Shown: in pieces, positions 1 through 35,326 of the stretch
Numbering within the stretch: position 1 is the first letter of the stretch
How the letters are laid out: each line of letters begins with the position of its first letter
NCBI RefSeq assembly: GCF_003130705.1
Contig: NZ_CP021354.1
Span: 1,364,001 to 1,428,000 of the forward strand
Direction of reading: 5' to 3'
DNA: 64,000 nt
Origin: Rhodococcus oxybenzonivorans
Lineage (GTDB): Bacteria; Actinomycetota; Actinomycetes; Mycobacteriales; Mycobacteriaceae
Program-made: the position numbers and the translations under genes
Notes under the pieces: generated by a model
The model's database searches: none
The model's input: the letters and a program-made list of their open reading frames with translations, nothing else
Told to the model about the DNA's origin: nothing

Positions 1-495
1 GGTGGCGCTGACGTTCGTCCCGAGATCCGGGTGCACGAGTTCGGCGCCGTCGGCGGCCGCGGCCGCGAGATCGAGCACGACCGGCAGTTCGTCGTACTCG
101 ACGTCGATCGCCTCGAGTGCGTCGTGAGCCTCGTACGCGCTGCGTGCCACCACAACCGCGACGGCCTCGCCGGCGAAGTTCACCCTGTCGACCGCGAGGG
201 ACGGGGCGGGCGGTGACTTCATGTCCGGTGTGATCGGCCATGCGCACGGCAGGCTGCCCTGCTCGGCGGCGAGGTCGGCGCCGGTCAGGACCGCGACGAC
301 ACCGGGCATCTCGTGGGCGGCGGTGGCGTCGACACCGGTGATGCGGGCGTGCGCGAACGGGCTGCGCAGAATCGCCAGGTGCTGCATACCCGGCAGCACG
401 AGGTTGTCGGTCCAGCGGGTGCGTCCGGTGACCAGATGCTCGTCTTCCTTGCGCTTGCGGGCCTTTCCGATTTCCGGTTCGGCGGTGGCGGTCAT
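1..495 (-). CDS. Molybdenum hydroxylase large subunit (CoxL-type), 5' part only
   Basis: N-terminal 165 residues of a xanthine dehydrogenase/CO dehydrogenase-type molybdopterin-cytosine-dinucleotide subunit; the rest lies beyond the window edge. The start reads [19 protein letters not shown] followed by the family's typical '[12 protein letters not shown]' entry and a 'SPFAHARI' stretch near residue 45, both usual in the N-terminal domain. The ATG overlaps the stop of the Fe-S subunit gene by 4 bp (ATGA), so translation is probably coupled. The active-site loop that separates true CO dehydrogenase from other hydroxylases is not in view, so the substrate is unknown. The nearby MoxR and VWA genes are typical CoxD/CoxE-like maturation partners. 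Confidence 0.9.
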
Positions 496-1025
496 CGCAC
501 ACCTCCCTGCGCGGTGTCGGTCGTCGGTGCATCCGCCGTCGTCGGTGTTTCGGTGGTGCTGCCGCCGCGCAACCGCTGCGCCGCATCCTGCACCGCGCTG
601 ACGATGTTCTGGTACCCGGTACAGCGGCACAGATTGCCTTCCAACCCCAGCCGCACCGTCCGCTCGTCCGGGTCGGGTTCCTCGGCGAGCAGGTCGAGGG
701 TCTGCATGATCATGCCGGGGGTGCAGTAGCCGCACTGCAGGGCGTGGTTGTCGCGGAACGCCTGCTGCACGGGGTGCAACGTCCCGTTCCGGGACAGGCC
801 CTCGACGGTGAGGACGTCGCCGCCGTCGGCCTGCACGGCGAGCACCGAGCAGGACTTGACGCTGTGACCGTTCAGGTGAACGGTGCACGCCCCGCAGTTT
901 CCGGTGTCGCAGCCGATGACGGTGCCGACCTTGCCGAGCCGGTCCCGAAGATAGTGGACGAGGAGCAGTCGCGGTTCCACCTCGTCCGTGTATGCCGTTC
1001 CGTCGACGGTGACAGTGATGCGCAT
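492..1025 (-). CDS. Molybdenum hydroxylase small subunit with two [2Fe-2S] clusters (CoxS-type)
   Basis: A 177-residue iron-sulfur subunit that would pass electrons from the molybdenum subunit to a flavin subunit. The plant-type cluster cysteines are C39, C44, C47 and C59 (CDTGNCGAC pattern); the second cluster uses C98, C101, C133 and C135 (CGYC...CRC). Family members are usually about 150-170 residues; here the C-terminus carries a Thr/Ala/Asp-rich tail after about residue 153 that is probably disordered. It is followed by the large subunit gene with a 4-bp overlap. No FAD (CoxM) subunit is visible on this side; it may lie beyond the edge. Confidence 0.93.
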
Positions 1026-26964: not shown

Positions 26965-27792
26965 ATGGATCTCCACACTGTCACGGACGTCGTTCGACGA
27001 CCATCCGACAGGCCGGGGGAGGCGTGGTGTGACGGCGACGCCTGGCTGGCCGGGGGCACGTGGTTGTTCTCCGTCCCGCAGCCCGACGTCCGCCGCCTCG
27101 TCGACATCACCACCCTCGGCTGGGATGCGCTGGTGGCCGGTGACGCCGGCCTGGAGATCGGTGCCACGTGCACGATCCGGGAGCTGTATGCGCTGGAGCC
27201 GCCGGGCGACTGGCTCGCCGGCCCGTTGCTGGCCACGAGTTGCGAGGCGTTTCTGGCGTCGTTCAAGGTATGGAATTCGGCGACAGTCGGCGGCAACATC
27301 TGCATGTCACTGCCTGCCGGCCCGATGATCACGCTGACCGTCGCGCTGGAGGCGACGTACACGCTCTGGAATGCCGACGGATCCGAACGCACCGTCGATG
27401 CCGTCGACTTCGTGACGGGAGATCACCGCAACATCCTCGCGCCGGGTGACATCCTGCGGCGCATCGACATTCCGGTGAGTGCCTTGCGTAAGCGTCACAC
27501 CCACCGTCGTTTCACGCTTACGCAGTTGGGTCGTTCCACGATCTTCCTGATCGCCACGCAGTCGCCCGGAACCGACGACTTTCTGCTCACCCTGACTGCG
27601 GGCACCACCCGTCCGGTGCGCCTGTCGTTCGACTCCATGCCCGATGCCGACGCGTTGCGCCACAGCATCGACGACCTACCCGCCGACGTGTGGTTCGACG
27701 ATCCGAACGGCACTCCCGACCACCGCCGTCACCTGGCGAAACACTTCGCCGAAGAGATTCGCAGTGAACTGGCACCGGGAGAACTGTCATGA
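26965..27792 (+). CDS. Molybdenum hydroxylase FAD-binding subunit (CoxM-like)
   Basis: A 275-residue FAD-binding PCMH-type subunit that accepts electrons from the Fe-S clusters. Visible are the pyrophosphate-binding LAGGTWLFSVPQPD segment, IGATCTIREL, and KVWNSATVGGNICMSLPAGP, the canonical ATVGGN FAD motif. AGGGGAGC precedes the ATG at 26965. The gene overlaps the next one by 4 bp (ATGA), so the flavin and Fe-S/Mo subunits are made together. Confidence 0.9.
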   Translation: MDLHTVTDVVRRPSDRPGEAWCDGDAWLAGGTWLFSVPQPDVRRLVDITTLGWDALVAGDAGLEIGATCTIRELYALEPPGDWLAGPLLATSCEAFLASFKVWNSATVGGNICMSLPAGPMITLTVALEATYTLWNADGSERTVDAVDFVTGDHRNILAPGDILRRIDIPVSALRKRHTHRRFTLTQLGRSTIFLIATQSPGTDDFLLTLTAGTTRPVRLSFDSMPDADALRHSIDDLPADVWFDDPNGTPDHRRHLAKHFAEEIRSELAPGELS

Positions 27793-30512
27793 CGTACACC
27801 GTGAACGGCAAGACGTTCGACGAACAACCCGAGCCGGGCCAGTGCCTGCGCACCTTCGTGCGCGCACTGGGCCATCACGGTGTGAAGAAGGGATGCGACG
27901 CGGGCGATTGCGGCGCGTGCACGGTGTGGCTCGACGGCGTCCCTGTGCACAGCTGCATCACCCCTGCTTTCCGGGCCGACGGCCACGAGGTGACGACCAT
28001 CGAGGGGCTGGGCTCACCCGAAAATCTGCACCCGGTGCAGCGCTGCTTCCGCGATGCGCCGGGCTTTCAGTGCGGTTTCTGCACTGCCGGCATGATCATG
28101 ACTTCGGCGACGTTCACGGACGCGCAGAAGGCGGATCTGCCTCGCGCGCTGAAGGGTAACTTGTGCCGTTGCACCGGGTACCGGGCGATCGAAGACGCGA
28201 TCAACGGTGTCACCGAGATCGAGGAAGCGCTGCCGGGCAAGGCCGTCGGCACCAGTGTGGGAGCGCCCGCAGCCACCGAAGTGGTCACGGGCCGCGCCGA
28301 GTTCACCATGGACACCGAGATCGAGGGCATGCTGCAGCTGAAGGTGCTGCACTCCCCGCACGCCCATGCGCGCATCGTCTCCATCGACAAGACCGCGGCG
28401 CTCGCCGTTCCCGGGGTGCTGCGGGTGTACACGTGGCAGGACGTGCCCCGCAAGAGGTTCACCACGGCAATCCACACCGATCACCTCGTCGACCCCGACG
28501 ACACCTACATCCTCGACGACACCGTGCGGTTCGCCGGGCAGCGGGTGGTCGCGGTACTCGCCGACACCGTCGCCGCCGCCGAGGAGGGATGCCGGAAGGT
28601 GGTGGTCGAATACGACATGCTGCCTGCGGTGTTCGACCCGGAGGAAGCGATGGCGGACGGGGCGCCTCGGCTGCACGGCTCGGACGACCCCTTCGTACGG
28701 GACCCCGACCACAACATCCTCCTCGAACTCCACGGGAACATCGGTGACCTCGAGGCGGGGCTGGCCGAGGCCGACGTGATCCACGAGGGCACCTACTTCT
28801 CCCCGCGCGTACAGCACGCGCATCTCGAGACGCACGGGTCGATCGCGTGGATGGAGGACGGCAGGCTGCACGTGCGCACCAGCTCGCAGTCGCCTTCCAT
28901 CGCCAAGGTCAAGCTGGCCCATCTCTTCGACCTGCGTCCCGATCAGCTGCGTGTGTTCTGCAAGCGTGTCGGTGGCGGTTTCGGTGGCAAGCAGGAGGTG
29001 ATCACCGAGGATCTGGTGGCGCTCGCCGCCCTCGACACCGGGCGTCCGGTCTGCTTCGAGTACACCCGGGAGGAGGAGTTCACGACGGCATCGCCGCGGC
29101 ACCCGATGACGTTGACGATCACCTTGGGAGCGCGGGCCGACGGCACGCTCACCGCGTTCGGGGTGCGCAACGTGTCGAACACGGGCGCCTACGGCAATCA
29201 CGGGGGCGAGACCCTGTTCGCGGCCGGAGCCGCCATCTCGATGTACCGGTGCCGCAACAAGAAGTTCGACGCGTACTCCGTCTACACGAACACGGTGCCG
29301 AGTGGTGCGCTGCGCGGGTACGGCATGACTCAGCCGGCGTTCGCGGTGGAGTCCGCGATGCACGAACTCGCGGTCGCCCTCGACATCGATCCGCTGGAAC
29401 TGCGCAGACGCAACATCGTGCGCCCCGGGGATTCCCTCGTGGCAATCGACGACCGGCCGGACGACGTCGCCTTCAACGAGGACGGCCTCGGCCAGTGCAT
29501 CGACCTCGTCGACGCTGCCCTCTCGCGCAGTGCGGACGGGAAGGCGCTCGGTGGCCACTGGCTGATCGGCACGGGTACCGCCAGTTCTGTGCACGAGACC
29601 GCCCCGCCCACGGAGCACATCTCGGAGGCGTGGCTGACACTCGGTGACGACTGTGTCTACGAATTAGCAGTCGGCACGGTCGAATTCGGGGAGGGAACGT
29701 CCACCGCGCATGTGCAGATCGCCGCCAACCAGCTCGGCACCACACCCGCGCGGGTGCGGCTCGTGCAGTCCGACACCGACCGGACCGGTTTCGACACAGG
29801 AGCGTTCGCGAGCGCGGGCCTGTTCGTCGCCGGCAACGCCGTGCTGCGGGCATCCGACGCCCTCCGCGACCGCATCCTGGCCTTCGCTGCCGCACACACC
29901 CGGTCCGATTTGTCCGACTGCTCGATGGACGACGACGGCGTTGTCTGTGGTGGCGTCCGCGTCTCGCTCGGCGAACTCCTCGATGCGGCACACCGACGCG
30001 GTATCCGGTTCACCGCGGCGCGCAAGGCGTACGGCTCGCCGCGCAGCGTGGTGTCGAATACCCACGGCTTCCGTATCGCCGTTCACCGGATCACGGGCGA
30101 GGTCCGCATCCTCTACAGCGTTCATGCCACCGACGCCGGCGTTGTCATCAACCCGGCTCAGGTGCGCGGCCAGATCGAGGGCGGCGTGGCCCAGGGCATC
30201 GGGTTCGCGCTGACCGAGAACTACCACGTCGACCACACCGGCACGATGATCAACCCGAGCCTGCGGAACTATTGTATCCCCACGTACGCCGACGTCCCGC
30301 GCACGGAGGTGTTGCTGGTCGACTCGTCGGATTCTGTCGGCCCGATGCGGTCCAAAGGCATGGCGGAGTGCTGTATCAACCCGGTGGCGCCGGCGTTGGC
30401 CAATGCCCTGCACGACGCGACCGGTGTGCGCTACCGGGAGTTGCCGCTGACACCCGAGCGCATCTACCGACGGCTCGGGGAGTCGACGAGCGTTGTGACG
30501 GCGCAGGCGTAG
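27789..30512 (+). CDS. Molybdenum hydroxylase, fused [2Fe-2S] and molybdopterin subunit
   Basis: A 907-residue protein that fuses what are separate CoxS and CoxL chains at the window's left end. Residues 1-155 are the Fe-S part: C36, C41, C44, C56 (CDAGDCGAC...C) and C95, C98, C126, C128. From about residue 165 the Mo part starts with TGRAEFTMD and SPHAHARI, then RVGGGFGGKQE and RGYGMTQPAFAVE. The catalytic Glu lies in SKGMAECCINPVAPA, replacing the more usual GVGEPP context. The nearby FAD subunit completes the electron path to NAD+ or another acceptor. The substrate (purine, aldehyde or N-heterocycle) is unknown. Confidence 0.92.
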   Translation: MTYTVNGKTFDEQPEPGQCLRTFVRALGHHGVKKGCDAGDCGACTVWLDGVPVHSCITPAFRADGHEVTTIEGLGSPENLHPVQRCFRDAPGFQCGFCTAGMIMTSATFTDAQKADLPRALKGNLCRCTGYRAIEDAINGVTEIEEALPGKAVGTSVGAPAATEVVTGRAEFTMDTEIEGMLQLKVLHSPHAHARIVSIDKTAALAVPGVLRVYTWQDVPRKRFTTAIHTDHLVDPDDTYILDDTVRFAGQRVVAVLADTVAAAEEGCRKVVVEYDMLPAVFDPEEAMADGAPRLHGSDDPFVRDPDHNILLELHGNIGDLEAGLAEADVIHEGTYFSPRVQHAHLETHGSIAWMEDGRLHVRTSSQSPSIAKVKLAHLFDLRPDQLRVFCKRVGGGFGGKQEVITEDLVALAALDTGRPVCFEYTREEEFTTASPRHPMTLTITLGARADGTLTAFGVRNVSNTGAYGNHGGETLFAAGAAISMYRCRNKKFDAYSVYTNTVPSGALRGYGMTQPAFAVESAMHELAVALDIDPLELRRRNIVRPGDSLVAIDDRPDDVAFNEDGLGQCIDLVDAALSRSADGKALGGHWLIGTGTASSVHETAPPTEHISEAWLTLGDDCVYELAVGTVEFGEGTSTAHVQIAANQLGTTPARVRLVQSDTDRTGFDTGAFASAGLFVAGNAVLRASDALRDRILAFAAAHTRSDLSDCSMDDDGVVCGGVRVSLGELLDAAHRRGIRFTAARKAYGSPRSVVSNTHGFRIAVHRITGEVRILYSVHATDAGVVINPAQVRGQIEGGVAQGIGFALTENYHVDHTGTMINPSLRNYCIPTYADVPRTEVLLVDSSDSVGPMRSKGMAECCINPVAPALANALHDATGVRYRELPLTPERIYRRLGESTSVVTAQA

Positions 30513-30522
30513 GGCGGCGGCG

Positions 30523-31494
30523 ATGCGCGCGGAACGGATCGACAGCGGCGCCGCGACGGTGATCATCGGCCAGAAGGTCCGCGCCGGTTGCGAGCAGGCC
30601 TTCGAGACGTGGCAAGAGGACATGAATGCCGCCGCCTCGGATTACGCCGGGTTCATGGGCGCGGAGATCACCGCACCGACCGACGTGCAGCCCGACTGGG
30701 TGGTGGTCTACCGCTTCGATTCCATCGCTCACGTGCAGGCCTGGATCAACAGCGCCACCCGGCAGGAGCACCTCGACGTGGGGCAGCGGTACGTCGACGG
30801 TCCCGCCACCCAGCAGGTCCTCGGCGGGGACACCCGACCCCACGACCCGCTCGTCACCGTCGTCGTGTCACATCGCGTCGCGTCCGGCAACGTCACCGCC
30901 TTCCTCGACTGGCAGGAGCGACTGCGCCTGGAAGAGAGCAGGTTCGAGGGGTTCCGGGGCAGTGAACTCTTCCGTCCCGTCGAGGGCGTGCAGGACGAGT
31001 GGACCGCGCTGTACCGCTACGACACCGCGGCGCACCTCGACACCTGGCTCACCTCGAAGAAGCGGCAGGAGCTGCTGGCGGAGGGTGAAGAGTTCTCCGA
31101 CTTCGAGTTACGCACCGTCGACAACTCCTTCGGCAGTTGGTTCGCGTTCGACGAGAACGGCAAGGAGGCCCCGCCGCCGTCGGAGACCAAAACCTCCATC
31201 GCTGTCTGGGTCGGCCTGTATCCCACCGTCGTGCTGCTCACACTTGCGCTGTCGCCGTTGCGGATGCCGCTGTGGCTCGGAATGCTCGTCGGCAATCTGC
31301 TGTCCAGCTTCACCATGAGTTTCCTGACGATGCCCCACTACGTGAACCCGCTCCTGGGGCGGTGGCTGCGGCCCCCAGCGGGTGCGTCGAAGGTGAAGTC
31401 CAACGTCAGAGGGATCGCGCTCGTCGCAGCCGCCAATGTGTTCTGGGTGCTCGTCTTCTTTCTGGTGACCACCCAGTTCTGGACGCTGCCCTGA
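30523..31494 (+). CDS. Membrane protein with two N-terminal ABM-like domains
   Basis: A 323-residue protein. Two tandem antibiotic-biosynthesis-monooxygenase (dimeric alpha/beta barrel) units occupy about residues 10-105 and 108-205; each has a VxxxVxxGxxxxFxxWQExxR/N pattern followed by a WxxxYRFDS/YRYDT strand. Three transmembrane segments follow (about 222-242, 248-270 and 298-320), with TSIAVWVGLYPTVVLL at the first. This layout occurs in uncharacterised actinobacterial and proteobacterial proteins. It starts 10 bp after the Mo subunit gene and reads the same way, so it is probably part of that operon. Confidence 0.85.
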   Translation: MRAERIDSGAATVIIGQKVRAGCEQAFETWQEDMNAAASDYAGFMGAEITAPTDVQPDWVVVYRFDSIAHVQAWINSATRQEHLDVGQRYVDGPATQQVLGGDTRPHDPLVTVVVSHRVASGNVTAFLDWQERLRLEESRFEGFRGSELFRPVEGVQDEWTALYRYDTAAHLDTWLTSKKRQELLAEGEEFSDFELRTVDNSFGSWFAFDENGKEAPPPSETKTSIAVWVGLYPTVVLLTLALSPLRMPLWLGMLVGNLLSSFTMSFLTMPHYVNPLLGRWLRPPAGASKVKSNVRGIALVAAANVFWVLVFFLVTTQFWTLP

Positions 31495-31529
31495 CAGCAG
31501 CGCCCCCGACACCGTCAACGGAAGGATCG

Positions 31530-32171
31530 ATGATGACCGCGAAAACCGTGCGAGGTACGAGCCTGACCGCCCTTGCCATGGCATCGGCACTGCTCCTGGG
31601 AGGTTGTGGCTCGGACAGCGCCGACGACTCCGGTTCGCAGACCAGTGCCACGGCAGCCGTCAACACGACGGATTCGGCAACCACGACGGATTCGACAACC
31701 ACGACTGGCGCCGGCACCTCGCCCAGTGGGACGGCGGCCTCGACGGCGGTGGGCAAGCAACAGGCCGAACAGATCGCTCTGGCGACGGTGCCCGGAGGCA
31801 CGGTCGTCTCGTCCGAAGAGGTGAAGCGGGACGGTAAGACCGTCTGGCACGTGCATATTCGCGACGGCAGGGGCTGGGACTACGACGTGAACGTCGACGC
31901 TGCCAACGGCACAGTCGTATCCGAGGACCAGGACCGGGACGACGACGAGGCTGCGACCACCCCCTCCGTGCCGGCCGCGTCGCAGGCGGTTACCCAGCAG
32001 CAGGCCGAGCAGACTGCCCTGGCGACGGTGCCCGGGGGCACGGTGGTCTCCTCGGAGGAACAGCAGCGGGACGGTAAAACGGTGTGGCACGTGCATATTC
32101 GCGACGGCAGGGGCTGGGACTACGACGTGAACGTCGATGCCGCCACCGGCGTGGTGGTACCCGACAACTGA
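31530..32171 (+). CDS. Lipoprotein with a duplicated PepSY-like unit
   Basis: A 213-residue exported lipoprotein. Signal sequence with lipobox LLGGC near residue 26, then a Ser/Thr/Asp-rich linker, then two PepSY-like units of about 60 residues starting GKQQAEQIALATVPGG and TQQQAEQTALATVPGG. Each unit ends WHVHIRDGRGWDYDVNVDA. The copies are exactly 240 bp apart and nearly identical at the DNA level in their second halves. The linker between them is acidic (DQDRDDDEA). PepSY domains are often inhibitory or sensor modules outside the cell. It starts 35 bp after the ABM protein gene. Confidence 0.85.
   Translation: MMTAKTVRGTSLTALAMASALLLGGCGSDSADDSGSQTSATAAVNTTDSATTTDSTTTTGAGTSPSGTAASTAVGKQQAEQIALATVPGGTVVSSEEVKRDGKTVWHVHIRDGRGWDYDVNVDAANGTVVSEDQDRDDDEAATTPSVPAASQAVTQQQAEQTALATVPGGTVVSSEEQQRDGKTVWHVHIRDGRGWDYDVNVDAATGVVVPDN
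31762..32165 (+). repeat. Two direct copies of the PepSY-coding segment, 240-bp period
   Basis: Copy 1 is about 31762-31925, copy 2 about 32002-32165. From 31845 to 31897 the sequence matches 32085-32137 base for base over about 50 bp, including silent positions, which suggests recent duplication or gene conversion. Confidence 0.85.
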
Positions 32172-32179
32172 CGGACGAT

Positions 32180-35100
32180 CTACCGCCCACCGAGCGGCAC
32201 CGGTCCGCTCGGTGCAGGCAGCGGGGGGAGAACGCCCAGCGGGGACGGCACCAGGGTGCCGGCCTGCGGGTCGGCCCTGCCGAGTTCGAACTTGCGGATC
32301 TCGGCGCCGCCCGGTCCGGCACCACTGACGAGTAGATCTGCGCCCGTGGTGGTGCTCGTCGTGGCCACCTGCACGCCACTGCCCGGGAACGGCACGAAGG
32401 CGGCGATCTGCGTGAAGGTGACGGGCCCTGAATGATGGTTGGGGCTCTCGAGATACATCGCCGGTTCGCCGTCGAGTCGTGAACCGCTCGACCAGACGCG
32501 AACCGTGCCGTCGCCGCCGAGCTGGCCGGCGACGATGCTCTGAGCGCCGCCCTCGGCGCCCGCGACCCACCCGGTCGACAGGGAGACGCCACCGGTATAG
32601 CTCTCGTCGAAGGCCAGGAAGTCCGTGGTGGTCACGGGCCCGGCAGCGTGGCCGGCATGCTCGTCCGTCGAACCGCTCGCCTCGGCCGCAGCGGTCTGGG
32701 TGTACAGGTCGTAGCGAAATGTCTTCACGCGGGGTGCTTCACCCGGACCGGGCGCGGTAACGATGCTGTCCCGGCCCGAGACGGCGTCGACCATGCCGGT
32801 GGCAACCGTGACACCCGACGTCGAACCTGGGTACGGCGTGAAGCTCCCGAACAACCCGGGGGCCGTGCCCTTCTTGCCGGGAAGACCGAAAATCTTCACT
32901 TCCGACTCGATTCCGGGACCGGAGCCGACGATGATGTTGTCGGCCAGGGCGTTGCCGTCGATGTCCGCGCCTGCGACAGTGACACCACCGCGGAATTCCG
33001 CGTCGAAGGGCGCGAAACGGGTGAGCTCGGAGAGGAACCCGTCTGCTCCGTCGTAGGCCACCACCTCGGGTGCCACCCCCGCACCCGTGCCGGCCACGAG
33101 GTCGAGCACCATGTCGCCGTCGACGTCGGCCATGGCGACGGTCGGCGTTCCCTCGAACGAGGGAAAGGGCGTGGCGGTCGAGACGAGCCTGTCACCGTTG
33201 CCGTCGTAGACCTGCACGGTCGCCGCCCCTCCCGGTGATCCAGGTACCGCGACCGCGTACGTCGACACCTCGGGGATCACGTTGACGGTGGCCATCAGCC
33301 CGTTGTCCTCGTGGTTGAGTCGATGGCAGTGGATGACGAAGGTGCCGATGTACTCGGTGAACTTCGTGCGCAGCGTCACCGAGGCCGGTACGAGCGGGTT
33401 CTCGTTCGCGTCGGTCACCGGCGCCGGCACGTTGACGTTGTCCTCACCCCACATCTGCACCCCTGTCCTCGTGCCGGCGACCGGGTCCACGATCTCGGTA
33501 ACCTGAAAGTCGTTGACGTGGATGTGCATCGGGTGTTCGTCATTGTTGAGATTGGTGATCAGCCACTCCTCGACGGAGTTCAGCCGCGGCTGGATCAAGG
33601 GAATATTGGGGAAGGTGTTGTCGTCGAACTCGTAGGTGAATGCCTTGGGGTCGCTGTTGCTGGCTTTCTCGTTGCCGAAACCGCCCGAGACGGTGAGGGT
33701 GCGTTTGACGTCGGGCGTCATCGCCGACGTGTCGACGAAAGACGTGTAGGCGTCGAGTTTCTGCCCGGGTTCGAACGGTGTGGTCCGTCCCTGCCCGTCG
33801 TCCGGGGTAGCGTGGACGAGTTTCTGCGTGGGAAAGGTGAAGAAGCCGTCGGCGTAGCTGATGACCGACGGGTCGACGGTGACGGTGCCCAGAACAGCGG
33901 GCGGGTTCTCGGTGCCGTCGTTCGTGTACAGCACACCGGGATTGCTGACCGGCTGCGCGTTGTCCAAGGGCGGCATGTCCAGCACCAGGTCGCCGGTCTG
34001 CGGCATCGTTACCGCAATCGCGTACCGCGACGCCGGCGGGATGACGAGCCGGGTCCCGTCACCGCCGACGGGCCTCTCGACCTGGGGGAAGGGATTTCCG
34101 TCCTGGCCGACTACCGCGAATTTCGGGTGGTTGCCCGTCGCCGTCTCGGTGAGGCGCAGCGGCATGTAGGCGAAGTCGCTGATGTTCGCGAGCACCCAGA
34201 TTTCGGTCTGTCCCGGCTTCAGCTTCAGTTCCGGCTGGAACTGGCCGTTCACCGTGTACTGCACATCGCGCTGATTGTCCGGCAGGGACGGATCCGCGGG
34301 GATGTTTGTCGTGTCGCTGCTGAAACTCTGCAGGTTGCCGGGCACGAACTGGTTCTGTCCCCGGTGGTTGGCGGGCGACAGCGGTCCGCTGTACCAGTTG
34401 GTGAAGTACTGGGCGCCCTCCGACGTTTCCGAGAAGTTCACCGGGGCCAGGCTCGGCGAGTACGTGCCGTCGGCGAGCTGGTCGCCTTCGGGGGGCGTCA
34501 GCGTGCTCACGTACTGCGGCCAGTTCGGGTCGTTCAGCTGATGCCCGCCGCCCTTGCGGTCGAACACGAAGTTGTACTGCAACGCCATGTCCCGGATCGG
34601 GATGTCGTGCTCGGTCACCAGCGGCAGGTTGCCGTCGGGACGCCCGATCTCGAGGAGTCCCGCGAGTCCGAGATACGTCTGCTGCGCCGTGACCGTGTGG
34701 CGGTGGCTGTGATACCAGTACAGGCCGTTCGGCATGTCCTTCGGCACCGCGTAGTCGTAGACGTTGCCTTTGCCCGCCGGGATGTCGAGTAGGACGTTGT
34801 CGGCGTTGCCGTCCGGACTGACATGCAGTCCGTGGGTGTGGAGATTGAGCGGTGACGACGTCAGAGGCGGCGGGTAGATCGGTACGTCCCCACCTGCGGG
34901 TGTGAAGGCGGGATCGTAGAAATCCTCGATCGTCAGGTTCTGCAGGTCGTTGTCGTAATGGATGATCAGACGCTCACCCGGATCGACCCGCAGCGTCGGG
35001 GCCGGGTAGACGCCGTCGGCCTCCGTCGAACCGTCGGAGGCCGTGCCTCGGAGAACCTCGTACCCGAAGAGCAGAAAATTCGATACCGGCGCCGAGGCGG

Positions 35101-35326
35101 TGTCGAGGTCGACGGTGCCCTGATGGGCCGAGAGCCGCACTTCGAGGACCCCGCCGTCGCTCGTCAGCTTCACCGGCTCCTGGTACGCGACGGGTGTGCC
35201 GTCCGGCCCGGAATTGCCACCACCCGCGGTGGTCGTGTCGGATGCGCAGCCGGCGAACATCAGAGTGAGCGACATGACCATCGTGACAGCGACCAGGACG
35301 ACCGGCCTTCTGCGACGGACGACCAT
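32180..35326 (-). CDS. Multicopper oxidase lipoprotein with C-terminal FG-GAP-like region
   Basis: A 1048-residue lipoprotein (lipobox MFAGC, about residue 27). Residues 40-690 are a multicopper oxidase with all four copper-ligand motifs: HTHG (about 163), WYHSH (about 206), HPMHIH (about 596) and HCHRLNHEDNGLM (about 663, type 1 Cys, His and axial Met). Residues 690-1040 hold FG-GAP/VCBS-like repeats (ADVDGDMVLDLVAGTG, ADIDGNALADNIIVGSG), a beta-propeller type usually made for binding. It is about twice the size of a plain bacterial laccase. The ATG at 35326 gives a proper lipoprotein signal. Its final codons contain the terminator of the opposing operon. Confidence 0.88.
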   Translation of the reverse strand: MVVRRRRPVVLVAVTMVMSLTLMFAGCASDTTTAGGGNSGPDGTPVAYQEPVKLTSDGGVLEVRLSAHQGTVDLDTASAPVSNFLLFGYEVLRGTASDGSTEADGVYPAPTLRVDPGERLIIHYDNDLQNLTIEDFYDPAFTPAGGDVPIYPPPLTSSPLNLHTHGLHVSPDGNADNVLLDIPAGKGNVYDYAVPKDMPNGLYWYHSHRHTVTAQQTYLGLAGLLEIGRPDGNLPLVTEHDIPIRDMALQYNFVFDRKGGGHQLNDPNWPQYVSTLTPPEGDQLADGTYSPSLAPVNFSETSEGAQYFTNWYSGPLSPANHRGQNQFVPGNLQSFSSDTTNIPADPSLPDNQRDVQYTVNGQFQPELKLKPGQTEIWVLANISDFAYMPLRLTETATGNHPKFAVVGQDGNPFPQVERPVGGDGTRLVIPPASRYAIAVTMPQTGDLVLDMPPLDNAQPVSNPGVLYTNDGTENPPAVLGTVTVDPSVISYADGFFTFPTQKLVHATPDDGQGRTTPFEPGQKLDAYTSFVDTSAMTPDVKRTLTVSGGFGNEKASNSDPKAFTYEFDDNTFPNIPLIQPRLNSVEEWLITNLNNDEHPMHIHVNDFQVTEIVDPVAGTRTGVQMWGEDNVNVPAPVTDANENPLVPASVTLRTKFTEYIGTFVIHCHRLNHEDNGLMATVNVIPEVSTYAVAVPGSPGGAATVQVYDGNGDRLVSTATPFPSFEGTPTVAMADVDGDMVLDLVAGTGAGVAPEVVAYDGADGFLSELTRFAPFDAEFRGGVTVAGADIDGNALADNIIVGSGPGIESEVKIFGLPGKKGTAPGLFGSFTPYPGSTSGVTVATGMVDAVSGRDSIVTAPGPGEAPRVKTFRYDLYTQTAAAEASGSTDEHAGHAAGPVTTTDFLAFDESYTGGVSLSTGWVAGAEGGAQSIVAGQLGGDGTVRVWSSGSRLDGEPAMYLESPNHHSGPVTFTQIAAFVPFPGSGVQVATTSTTTGADLLVSGAGPGGAEIRKFELGRADPQAGTLVPSPLGVLPPLPAPSGPVPLGGR
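32188..32214. terminator. Terminator of the Mo-hydroxylase operon, inside the MCO 3' end
   Basis: CACCGAGCGG and CCGCTCGGTG form a perfect 10-bp stem around CACCGGT, 16 bases after the lipoprotein stop codon. The same bases code for the last residues of the convergent multicopper oxidase. Confidence 0.75.

Follow-up and report, generated by a model that had tools for sequence, protein, structure and literature searches.

Several described systems resemble parts of the locus analysed here. The aldehyde oxidoreductase (AOR) of D. gigas (PDB 1sij/1vlb) is, like the molybdenum (Mo) subunit encoded at this locus, a 907-residue fused Fe–S/Mo protein, and the alignment of the two spans residues 25–895; D. 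gigas AOR is not known to have an FAD subunit or a membrane partner. The cofactor-independent oxygenases SnoaB and YgiN, together with Rv0793 and WhiE-ORFI, have in common with a second protein of the locus the ferredoxin-like ABM fold, in single or tandem form, and those with a single domain are soluble. A further point of comparison is PuuD, an integral-membrane urate oxidase that has a cytochrome c domain and whose membrane part is of another kind. The locus itself lies within a 64,000-nucleotide stretch of the 8.0 Mb Rhodococcus oxybenzonivorans genome, referred to below as the window.

Each of the protein families encoded at the locus is known; the combination is undescribed in the literature searchable as open access. 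The earlier note on this DNA had stated that it knew of no described pathway with this gene set, and for the hydroxylase and ABM genes this holds good: among the matches listed, text searches of open-access papers (and thus not of subscription papers) gave no description of a hydroxylase–ABM set. In passages of PMC3668242 and PMC9927464, the terms ‘xanthine dehydrogenase’ and ‘antibiotic biosynthesis monooxygenase’ occur once each, in unrelated gene or protein tables, and the passages of PMC10662689 contain nothing that concerns this locus. Open-access publications that mention xanthine dehydrogenase, multicopper oxidase and Mycobacterium do not, judged by title, deal with this gene set, and no publication combining ABM with guanine deaminase was found in the open-access literature.

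Gene organisation and conservation

The features of the locus, together with others referred to below, are listed in Table 1. The four co-directional genes to which the earlier note had drawn attention are confirmed by their ORF coordinates and Pfam domains: the FAD and Mo genes overlap by 4 bases, the Mo and ABM genes are separated by 10 bases and the ABM and PepSY genes by 35. A promoter and terminator scan returned a single weak promoter-like site, at the 5′ end of the ABM coding sequence, and no terminators; with shuffle means of 0.5 and 2.2, the scan is uninformative for this GC-rich genome. The Mo-hydroxylase at the beginning of the window is of the split type, in contrast to the fused type of the locus.

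Table 1 Coordinates of the features discussed in the text
Feature	Sequence	Position	Strand	Domains or basis
Part of another Mo-hydroxylase: N-terminal part of large subunit and separate small Fe–S subunit	Window	1–1025	-	By eye
FAD-binding subunit of xanthine-oxidase-family hydroxylase, 275 aa	Window	26965–27792	+	Pfam FAD_binding_5
Fused [2Fe–2S]x2/molybdopterin catalytic (Mo) subunit, 907 aa	Window	27789–30512	+	Pfam Fer2, Fer2_2, Ald_Xan_dh_C, MoCoBD_1, MoCoBD_2
Tandem-ABM membrane protein with three membrane helices at its C-terminus, 323 aa	Window	30523–31494	+	Pfam ABM
Weak promoter-like site	Window	30539–30566		Promoter scan
PepSY lipoprotein, 213 aa, two PepSY repeats	Window	31530–32171	+	Pfam PepSY x2
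The two PepSY repeats	Window	31749–32168
Multicopper oxidase (MCO), 1048 aa with ATG start, convergent	Window	32180–35326	-	Pfam Cu-oxidase_2/_3
Second tandem-ABM membrane protein of the same genome	L080	8426–9520	-
HpxO-like flavoprotein gene (presumed), Mycolicibacterium komossense	L142	5882–7012	+

The FAD subunit, the Mo subunit and the tandem-ABM protein form a real conserved unit. Across 28 genomes of the genus, a close ABM protein (at least 71% identity) and a close Mo subunit (at least 84%) are found in the same 20, with the genes adjacent in all 20, and neither is found in the remaining eight, two of which are 74–75% complete. In a sample of 201 genomes from the family, the ABM gene is adjacent to all 19 Mo orthologues (at least 81%); ABM proteins at 57% identity or above occur in 25 places, with the hydroxylase alongside in 19 and absent in six (G037, G066, G128, G162, G210 and G149). 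The class sample (374 genomes) yielded a Mo orthologue (at least 82%) in five genomes, with ABM adjacent in four; in G564 (L122, Streptomyces-type) the hydroxylase lacks an adjoining ABM gene, and the one ABM gene listed for this genome lies elsewhere, beside a deaminase (L126).

A scan of named species' genomes carrying an ABM protein, in which the nearest named relatives came from Rhodococcus, gave 37 loci, one of which (L078) is cut by a contig end, leaving 36 that are informative. The Mo gene lies directly upstream of the ABM gene in 32 of these, drawn from Rhodococcus, Nocardia, Mycobacterium and Streptomyces, and is absent from L064, L066, L069 and L074. Rhodococcus jostii has an orthologous locus (L071). 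Wherever the contig is long enough the Mo gene is in turn preceded by the FAD gene (30 of 30 Mo-bearing loci; L060 and L063 are cut inside the Mo gene). The earlier note's view that the hydroxylase and ABM genes belong together is thus borne out, both by the named loci and by the 19 of 25 family loci in which they are adjacent. With 32 loci set against four, the two are tied strongly, though not absolutely, and the loci that lack the hydroxylase (4 of 36 and 6 of 25) imply a partly independent existence for the ABM protein.

The PepSY lipoprotein is a different matter. It is found in the window species and in R. tibetensis (L042) only, corresponding to one of the 37 named loci, and is therefore judged to be a local addition rather than a component of the conserved module; its candidacy as a component was rejected on the same count. 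The earlier note had counted it a member of the system and had proposed co-occurrence of the four families as a check: this succeeds for the FAD, Mo and ABM genes and fails for PepSY. The note had also reasoned that its grouping would fall if the ABM and PepSY genes were regularly found apart from the hydroxylase and had their own promoter. The first of these mostly does not apply to ABM; it does apply to PepSY, insofar as the module occurs in its absence. The idea that all four genes make up one four-protein system, for which the co-directional placement of the PepSY gene and the short gap before it can be cited, is already refuted as regards a conserved system and is in our view very improbable indeed. 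The two PepSY repeats are very alike, which suggests a recent internal duplication, and the protein gives a weak NCBIfam match (20.4 of 325 bits) to the electron-transfer flavoprotein PplA.

A better conserved neighbour than PepSY is the MCO encoded just beyond it, outside the region covered by the earlier note, which is a conserved partner of the module. Its Cu-oxidase_2/_3 matches lie above the Pfam cut-off and the four copper-ligand histidine motifs (HTH, HSH, HIH and HCH) are intact, identifying the protein as a multicopper oxidase; it also carries a lipobox, as judged by eye, and its solved relatives include, among others, laccases, phenoxazinone synthase and bilirubin oxidase. When up to 8 kb downstream was read (less where contigs are shorter) and matches below 100 bits were excluded (as at L046 and L078), an MCO gene, always convergent, was present at 25 of the 32 named loci with a Mo gene and at none of the four lacking one. 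At L138 and L139 (one genus) and L140 (another genus), FAD, Mo, ABM and MCO genes follow one another on one strand as a tight operon; according to a simple gene caller, 4-base overlaps join the FAD, Mo and ABM genes of L139 and L140, and the MCO gene comes 16 and 30 bases later, respectively. At L137, an MCO–FAD–Mo series is co-directional without ABM. Taken together, these arrangements indicate that the MCO tracks the hydroxylase.

The hydroxylase and the tandem-ABM protein

Matches above the Pfam cut-offs (Fer2, Fer2_2, Ald_Xan_dh_C, MoCoBD_1/2 and FAD_binding_5) and the presence of all eight cluster cysteines of the Mo subunit (36, 41, 44 and 56; 95, 98, 126 and 128) place the hydroxylase in the xanthine oxidase family. 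Glu860 aligns with the glutamate of the GVGE motif of D. gigas AOR and is conserved across the groups compared; we take it to be the catalytic glutamate at the molybdenum. The best solved relatives of the Mo subunit are D. gigas AOR (5.4e-91) and 4-hydroxybenzoyl-CoA reductase (8.2e-90). Against the NCBIfam XdhA equivalog NF043082 it scores 525.4 bits, short of the cut-off of 780, and against the aldehyde oxidoreductase equivalog 418.7 of 1100.

The host genome (G000) encodes a paralogue at L079, 52% identical in the Mo subunit, in a cluster with uricase, OHCU decarboxylase and guanine deaminase. In a census of the 17 genomes reached via the named loci, 15 of which carry the FAD–Mo–ABM triad, a second Mo gene (51–56% identical) was found in 11 of the 15 triad genomes; the Mo gene of the module stands alone in G220, G222, G225 and G227 and the other kind alone in G223 and G228. 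For the trees, 132 ABM and 110 Mo places above 45 bits were reduced to 84 and 63 by removing brief matches, duplicate sequences and frames interrupted by a stop. The Mo tree, built by a quick method and subject to a long-branch warning, places the window type, the L137–L140 type and the uricase-linked type in separate groups (with modest support, 82 and 85, for the deep nodes) and groups the Mo gene that adjoins ABM at L091 with the uricase-linked type. Position 478, in the pocket region, is alanine in the window and L137–L140 types and histidine in the uricase-linked type and L091, and a comparison of the window type (n = 40) with the uricase-linked type (n = 14) yields 78 group-specific columns, position 478 included, each conserved within its group. 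The separate tree group and the differing pocket-region residues set the hydroxylase outside the canonical uricase-linked actinobacterial XDH; the paralogy, the tree and the 78 columns together make it a second, diverged XDH-like enzyme. As far as its sequence allows us to judge, its substrate is probably related to xanthine, though not certainly xanthine itself: the differing pocket region and the second Mo gene in most triad genomes suggest that the substrate may be another.

The membrane protein scores 43 bits against Pfam ABM (cut-off 23.1) and has a predicted ferredoxin-like fold, which place it in the ABM superfamily; where the sources name such membrane proteins, it is mostly as ‘antibiotic biosynthesis monooxygenase’, and the family PF27539 is given for them. 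Searched by sequence against solved structures it gave no match at E values up to 1, and only fold comparison, covering mainly residues 6–109 of the model, revealed relatives: SnoaB (3kg0), YgiN (1r6y), Rv0793 (1y0h) and the tandem-ABM WhiE-ORFI (9lmn), at 5–18% sequence identity. The AlphaFold2 model (mean pLDDT 83.1, pTM 0.44) comprises two ferredoxin-like domains followed by long C-terminal helices at 221–246, 250–282 and 290–319. Most of the positive charges fall in the loop joining helix 2 to helix 3, a distribution that makes a cytoplasmic orientation of the ABM domains probable. Within these domains Trp30, Trp74, Trp175 and Arg181 are invariant in 60 aligned sequences and His117 nearly so; the membrane part is also strongly conserved in the alignment (Tyr233–Pro234, Met270–Pro271, Trp281, Leu282 and Pro284).

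Purine-gene neighbours of the ABM family

Nine mycobacterial loci among the 37 named ones carry, divergently upstream, a gene for guanine deaminase (L055, L056, L065, L070, L072 and L074) and/or for a second, distant ABM membrane protein (L055, L056, L058, L061, L065, L067, L070 and L074). Eight of the nine hold the whole module; L074 has ABM without the hydroxylase. These deaminases are 82–87% identical to the host genome's own guanine deaminase, which is of the amidohydrolase type (NF006679, 352.8 bits against a cut-off of 351; TIGR02967, 315.7 of 375.4). Elsewhere, a guanine deaminase gene directly follows the ABM gene (L130) or lies between two ABM genes on one strand (L090), whilst at L091 the order is ABM–FAD–Mo, with a canonical-type XDH.

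A guanine deaminase of a second, CDA type accompanies more distant members of the family. It adjoins all seven class-level ABM genes at 39–41% identity (L123–L129), and all four g10 loci read, from nine g10 genomes with a match, show the same pairing. A reverse search starting from this deaminase found ten genes in 374 genomes, but seven of these are the L123–L129 loci again and so do not constitute independent evidence; of the three new loci, L166 has a full-length ABM gene, L168 a truncated one and L167 none; at L167 and L168 the deaminase, too, lacks part of its N-terminus. The CDA-type enzyme of L085 has B. subtilis guanine deaminase as its best structural match (1tiy/1wkq, 2.9e-29), ahead of guanosine deaminase (2.6e-18). 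In NCBIfam it matches no guanine deaminase model at E 0.01, its sole match being NF008113, tRNA adenosine deaminase (38.7 of 150 bits).

Viewed across the ABM tree (84 rows), a link to guanine deaminase or to an XDH-type hydroxylase is seen in five of six main groups, the exception being a group of Rhodococcus paralogues. Neither XDH nor either kind of guanine deaminase occurs in the stretch read for this group (18 kb at L080, about 1.5 kb of flanks elsewhere), for the Williamsia-type loci L066 and L069 or for L083, L084 and L087. The host's own member of the paralogue group is 29% identical to the window protein; the purine genes sought are absent from the 18 kb read around it, and a nearby gene is, we presume, glutamine-synthetase-like. 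No purine permease was found among 19 flanking proteins scanned besides XdhC, and no transporter or regulator is common to nine proteins beside the triad at five Streptomyces-type loci or to ten beside ABM at six or seven loci. An XdhC maturation gene adjoins the FAD gene at L139. An FAD-linked oxidase gene is a repeated neighbour of ABM genes, seen at four loci (L090, L091, L123 and L126) that belong to three branches of the tree, and is of the berberine-bridge type at L126. The 1.4 Mb contig NZ_JNYV01000002.1, filed as Kitasatospora arboriphila and the source of L064 and L089, has the gene neighbourhood of Williamsia muralis (L066, L069) and is for this reason probably mislabelled or contaminated.

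Proposed function of the module and comparison with known systems

We lean, with limited assurance, towards the view that the locus encodes a conserved actinobacterial, membrane-associated purine-oxidation module, built around a second XDH-like Mo hydroxylase and including the ABM protein and the MCO. The hydroxylase would be a cytoplasmic enzyme with a purine base, or one resembling it, as substrate, with oxygen taken from water and electrons passing from Mo via the Fe–S clusters to FAD, and would be associated with the membrane through the ABM protein or be assisted by it. The ABM domains may bind this base or the product of its oxidation; they would then serve as a cofactor-free oxygenase or, alternatively, as a membrane anchor that gathers purine enzymes. 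The MCO could work extracellularly on a product or redox mediator leaving the cell; PepSY would be a recent local neighbour. The earlier note had suggested that the ABM protein could be a partner on the electron acceptor side or could handle a reactive product at the membrane; what the analysis adds is the company that the ABM family keeps with guanine- and xanthine-type enzymes. In favour of the purine module are the conservation of the FAD–Mo–ABM unit and of its MCO, the uricase-linked cluster that holds the host's paralogue, the XdhC gene at L139 and the position of ABM relatives next to two unrelated families of guanine deaminase as well as a canonical-type XDH. Counted against it are the change in the pocket region, the second Mo gene of most triad genomes, the sub-cut-off XDH score, the ABM loci without purine genes, G564 with its hydroxylase lacking an adjoining ABM gene, the lack of a purine permease among the flanking proteins scanned and the failure of the CDA-type deaminase to match an NCBIfam guanine deaminase model.

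Some of these points would equally suit a hydroxylase that is no longer a purine enzyme and oxidises an aldehyde or another N-heterocycle, the mycobacterial guanine deaminase neighbours being remnants from a time when the locus encoded an XDH. The identity of its best solved relatives, the alanine in place of the histidine of the uricase-linked type at position 478, the frequency of a second Mo gene and of uricase (12 of 15 triad genomes) and the nature of the MCO's relatives all fit this alternative, but loci that lack this hydroxylase also show ABM relatives next to canonical-type XDH and next to guanine deaminases of two unrelated folds, a pattern for which ancestry at a single locus cannot account, and we regard the alternative as rather unlikely. 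A further minority possibility, one that overlaps with the purine module, casts the ABM protein as an anchor or scaffold without catalytic activity that recruits guanine deaminase and XDH-type enzymes. That the protein goes with purine-type enzymes of three kinds would suit such a role, as would the strong conservation of the membrane part; on the opposing side, the invariant tryptophans and arginine and the near-invariant histidine of the ABM domains would suit a putative ligand pocket.

A catalytic role of a particular kind, that of a cofactor-free membrane urate oxidase completing a route from guanine via xanthine and urate to hydroxyisourate without uricase, appears improbable. The ABM fold includes cofactor-independent oxygenases, with SnoaB among the structural neighbours, and uricase (PF01014) was not found in the triad genomes G216, G222, G227, G048, G089 and G105, the last two being outside the 86 of 201 family genomes with a uricase match. 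Uricase is, however, present in 13 of the 17 census genomes (the 12 triad genomes and one with ABM alone), and the uricase-less M. komossense, which has ABM, carries between its HIUase and XDH genes what we take to be an HpxO-like flavoprotein gene. Moreover, whilst all 32 genomes checked have an OHCU-decarboxylase match, in uricase-less loci (L143–L151, L157) this gene lies away from XDH and HIUase, so that a ureide pathway short only of its oxidase is not seen; G149 (L152) is an exception, with FAD, HIUase and Mo matches near its OHCU-decarboxylase gene. On these grounds, the ABM protein is disfavoured as a missing urate oxidase.

Two observations on these clusters may be added. The HpxO-like gene of L142 occupies the position of uricase in the related cluster L154. 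An OHCU-decarboxylase-like gene of ~173 aa adjoins a putative pyrophosphatase gene, presumably for an inorganic pyrophosphatase, at L143, L144, L151, L153 and L157 and also at L145–L150 (within about 5 kb at L145–L147), including in uricase-less genomes, and probably has a function other than ureide breakdown.

A bolder proposal, which we consider doubtful, is that the tandem-ABM membrane family constitutes a new class of purine-handling enzyme, either a cofactor-free oxygenase bound to the membrane or a redox protein that reacts with quinones, with guanine, xanthine or oxidised forms of these as substrates. Its partner would be guanine deaminase in some lineages and an XDH-type enzyme in others; in the lineage of the window it would form a purine-oxidation complex at the membrane with a dedicated second hydroxylase and an extracellular MCO. 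The repeated pairing of ABM genes with two folds of guanine deaminase and with XDH-type enzymes offers a concrete lead to the role of the ABM protein. It points to a membrane step in the oxidation of purines or purine-like compounds in Rhodococcus, Mycobacterium and Streptomyces, and hints at an unrecognised step of this kind in purine handling by soil actinobacteria; we know of no pathway map that includes one. The favoured purine-oxidation module would also explain why many of these genomes encode two similar ‘xanthine dehydrogenases’.

Set beside known systems, the window locus is most readily compared with the actinobacterial XDH cluster of the same genome (L079), with which it shares a two-gene hydroxylase layout and the same FAD subunit family in addition to the related Mo subunit. 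It differs in having no adjoining uricase or ureide genes, with ABM and MCO genes instead, and in having alanine rather than histidine at position 478. The ABM protein is set apart from SnoaB, YgiN and Rv0793 by its two domains and three predicted membrane helices. PuuD is likewise a membrane protein placed in purine breakdown, a likeness that requires no urate oxidase role for the protein described here.
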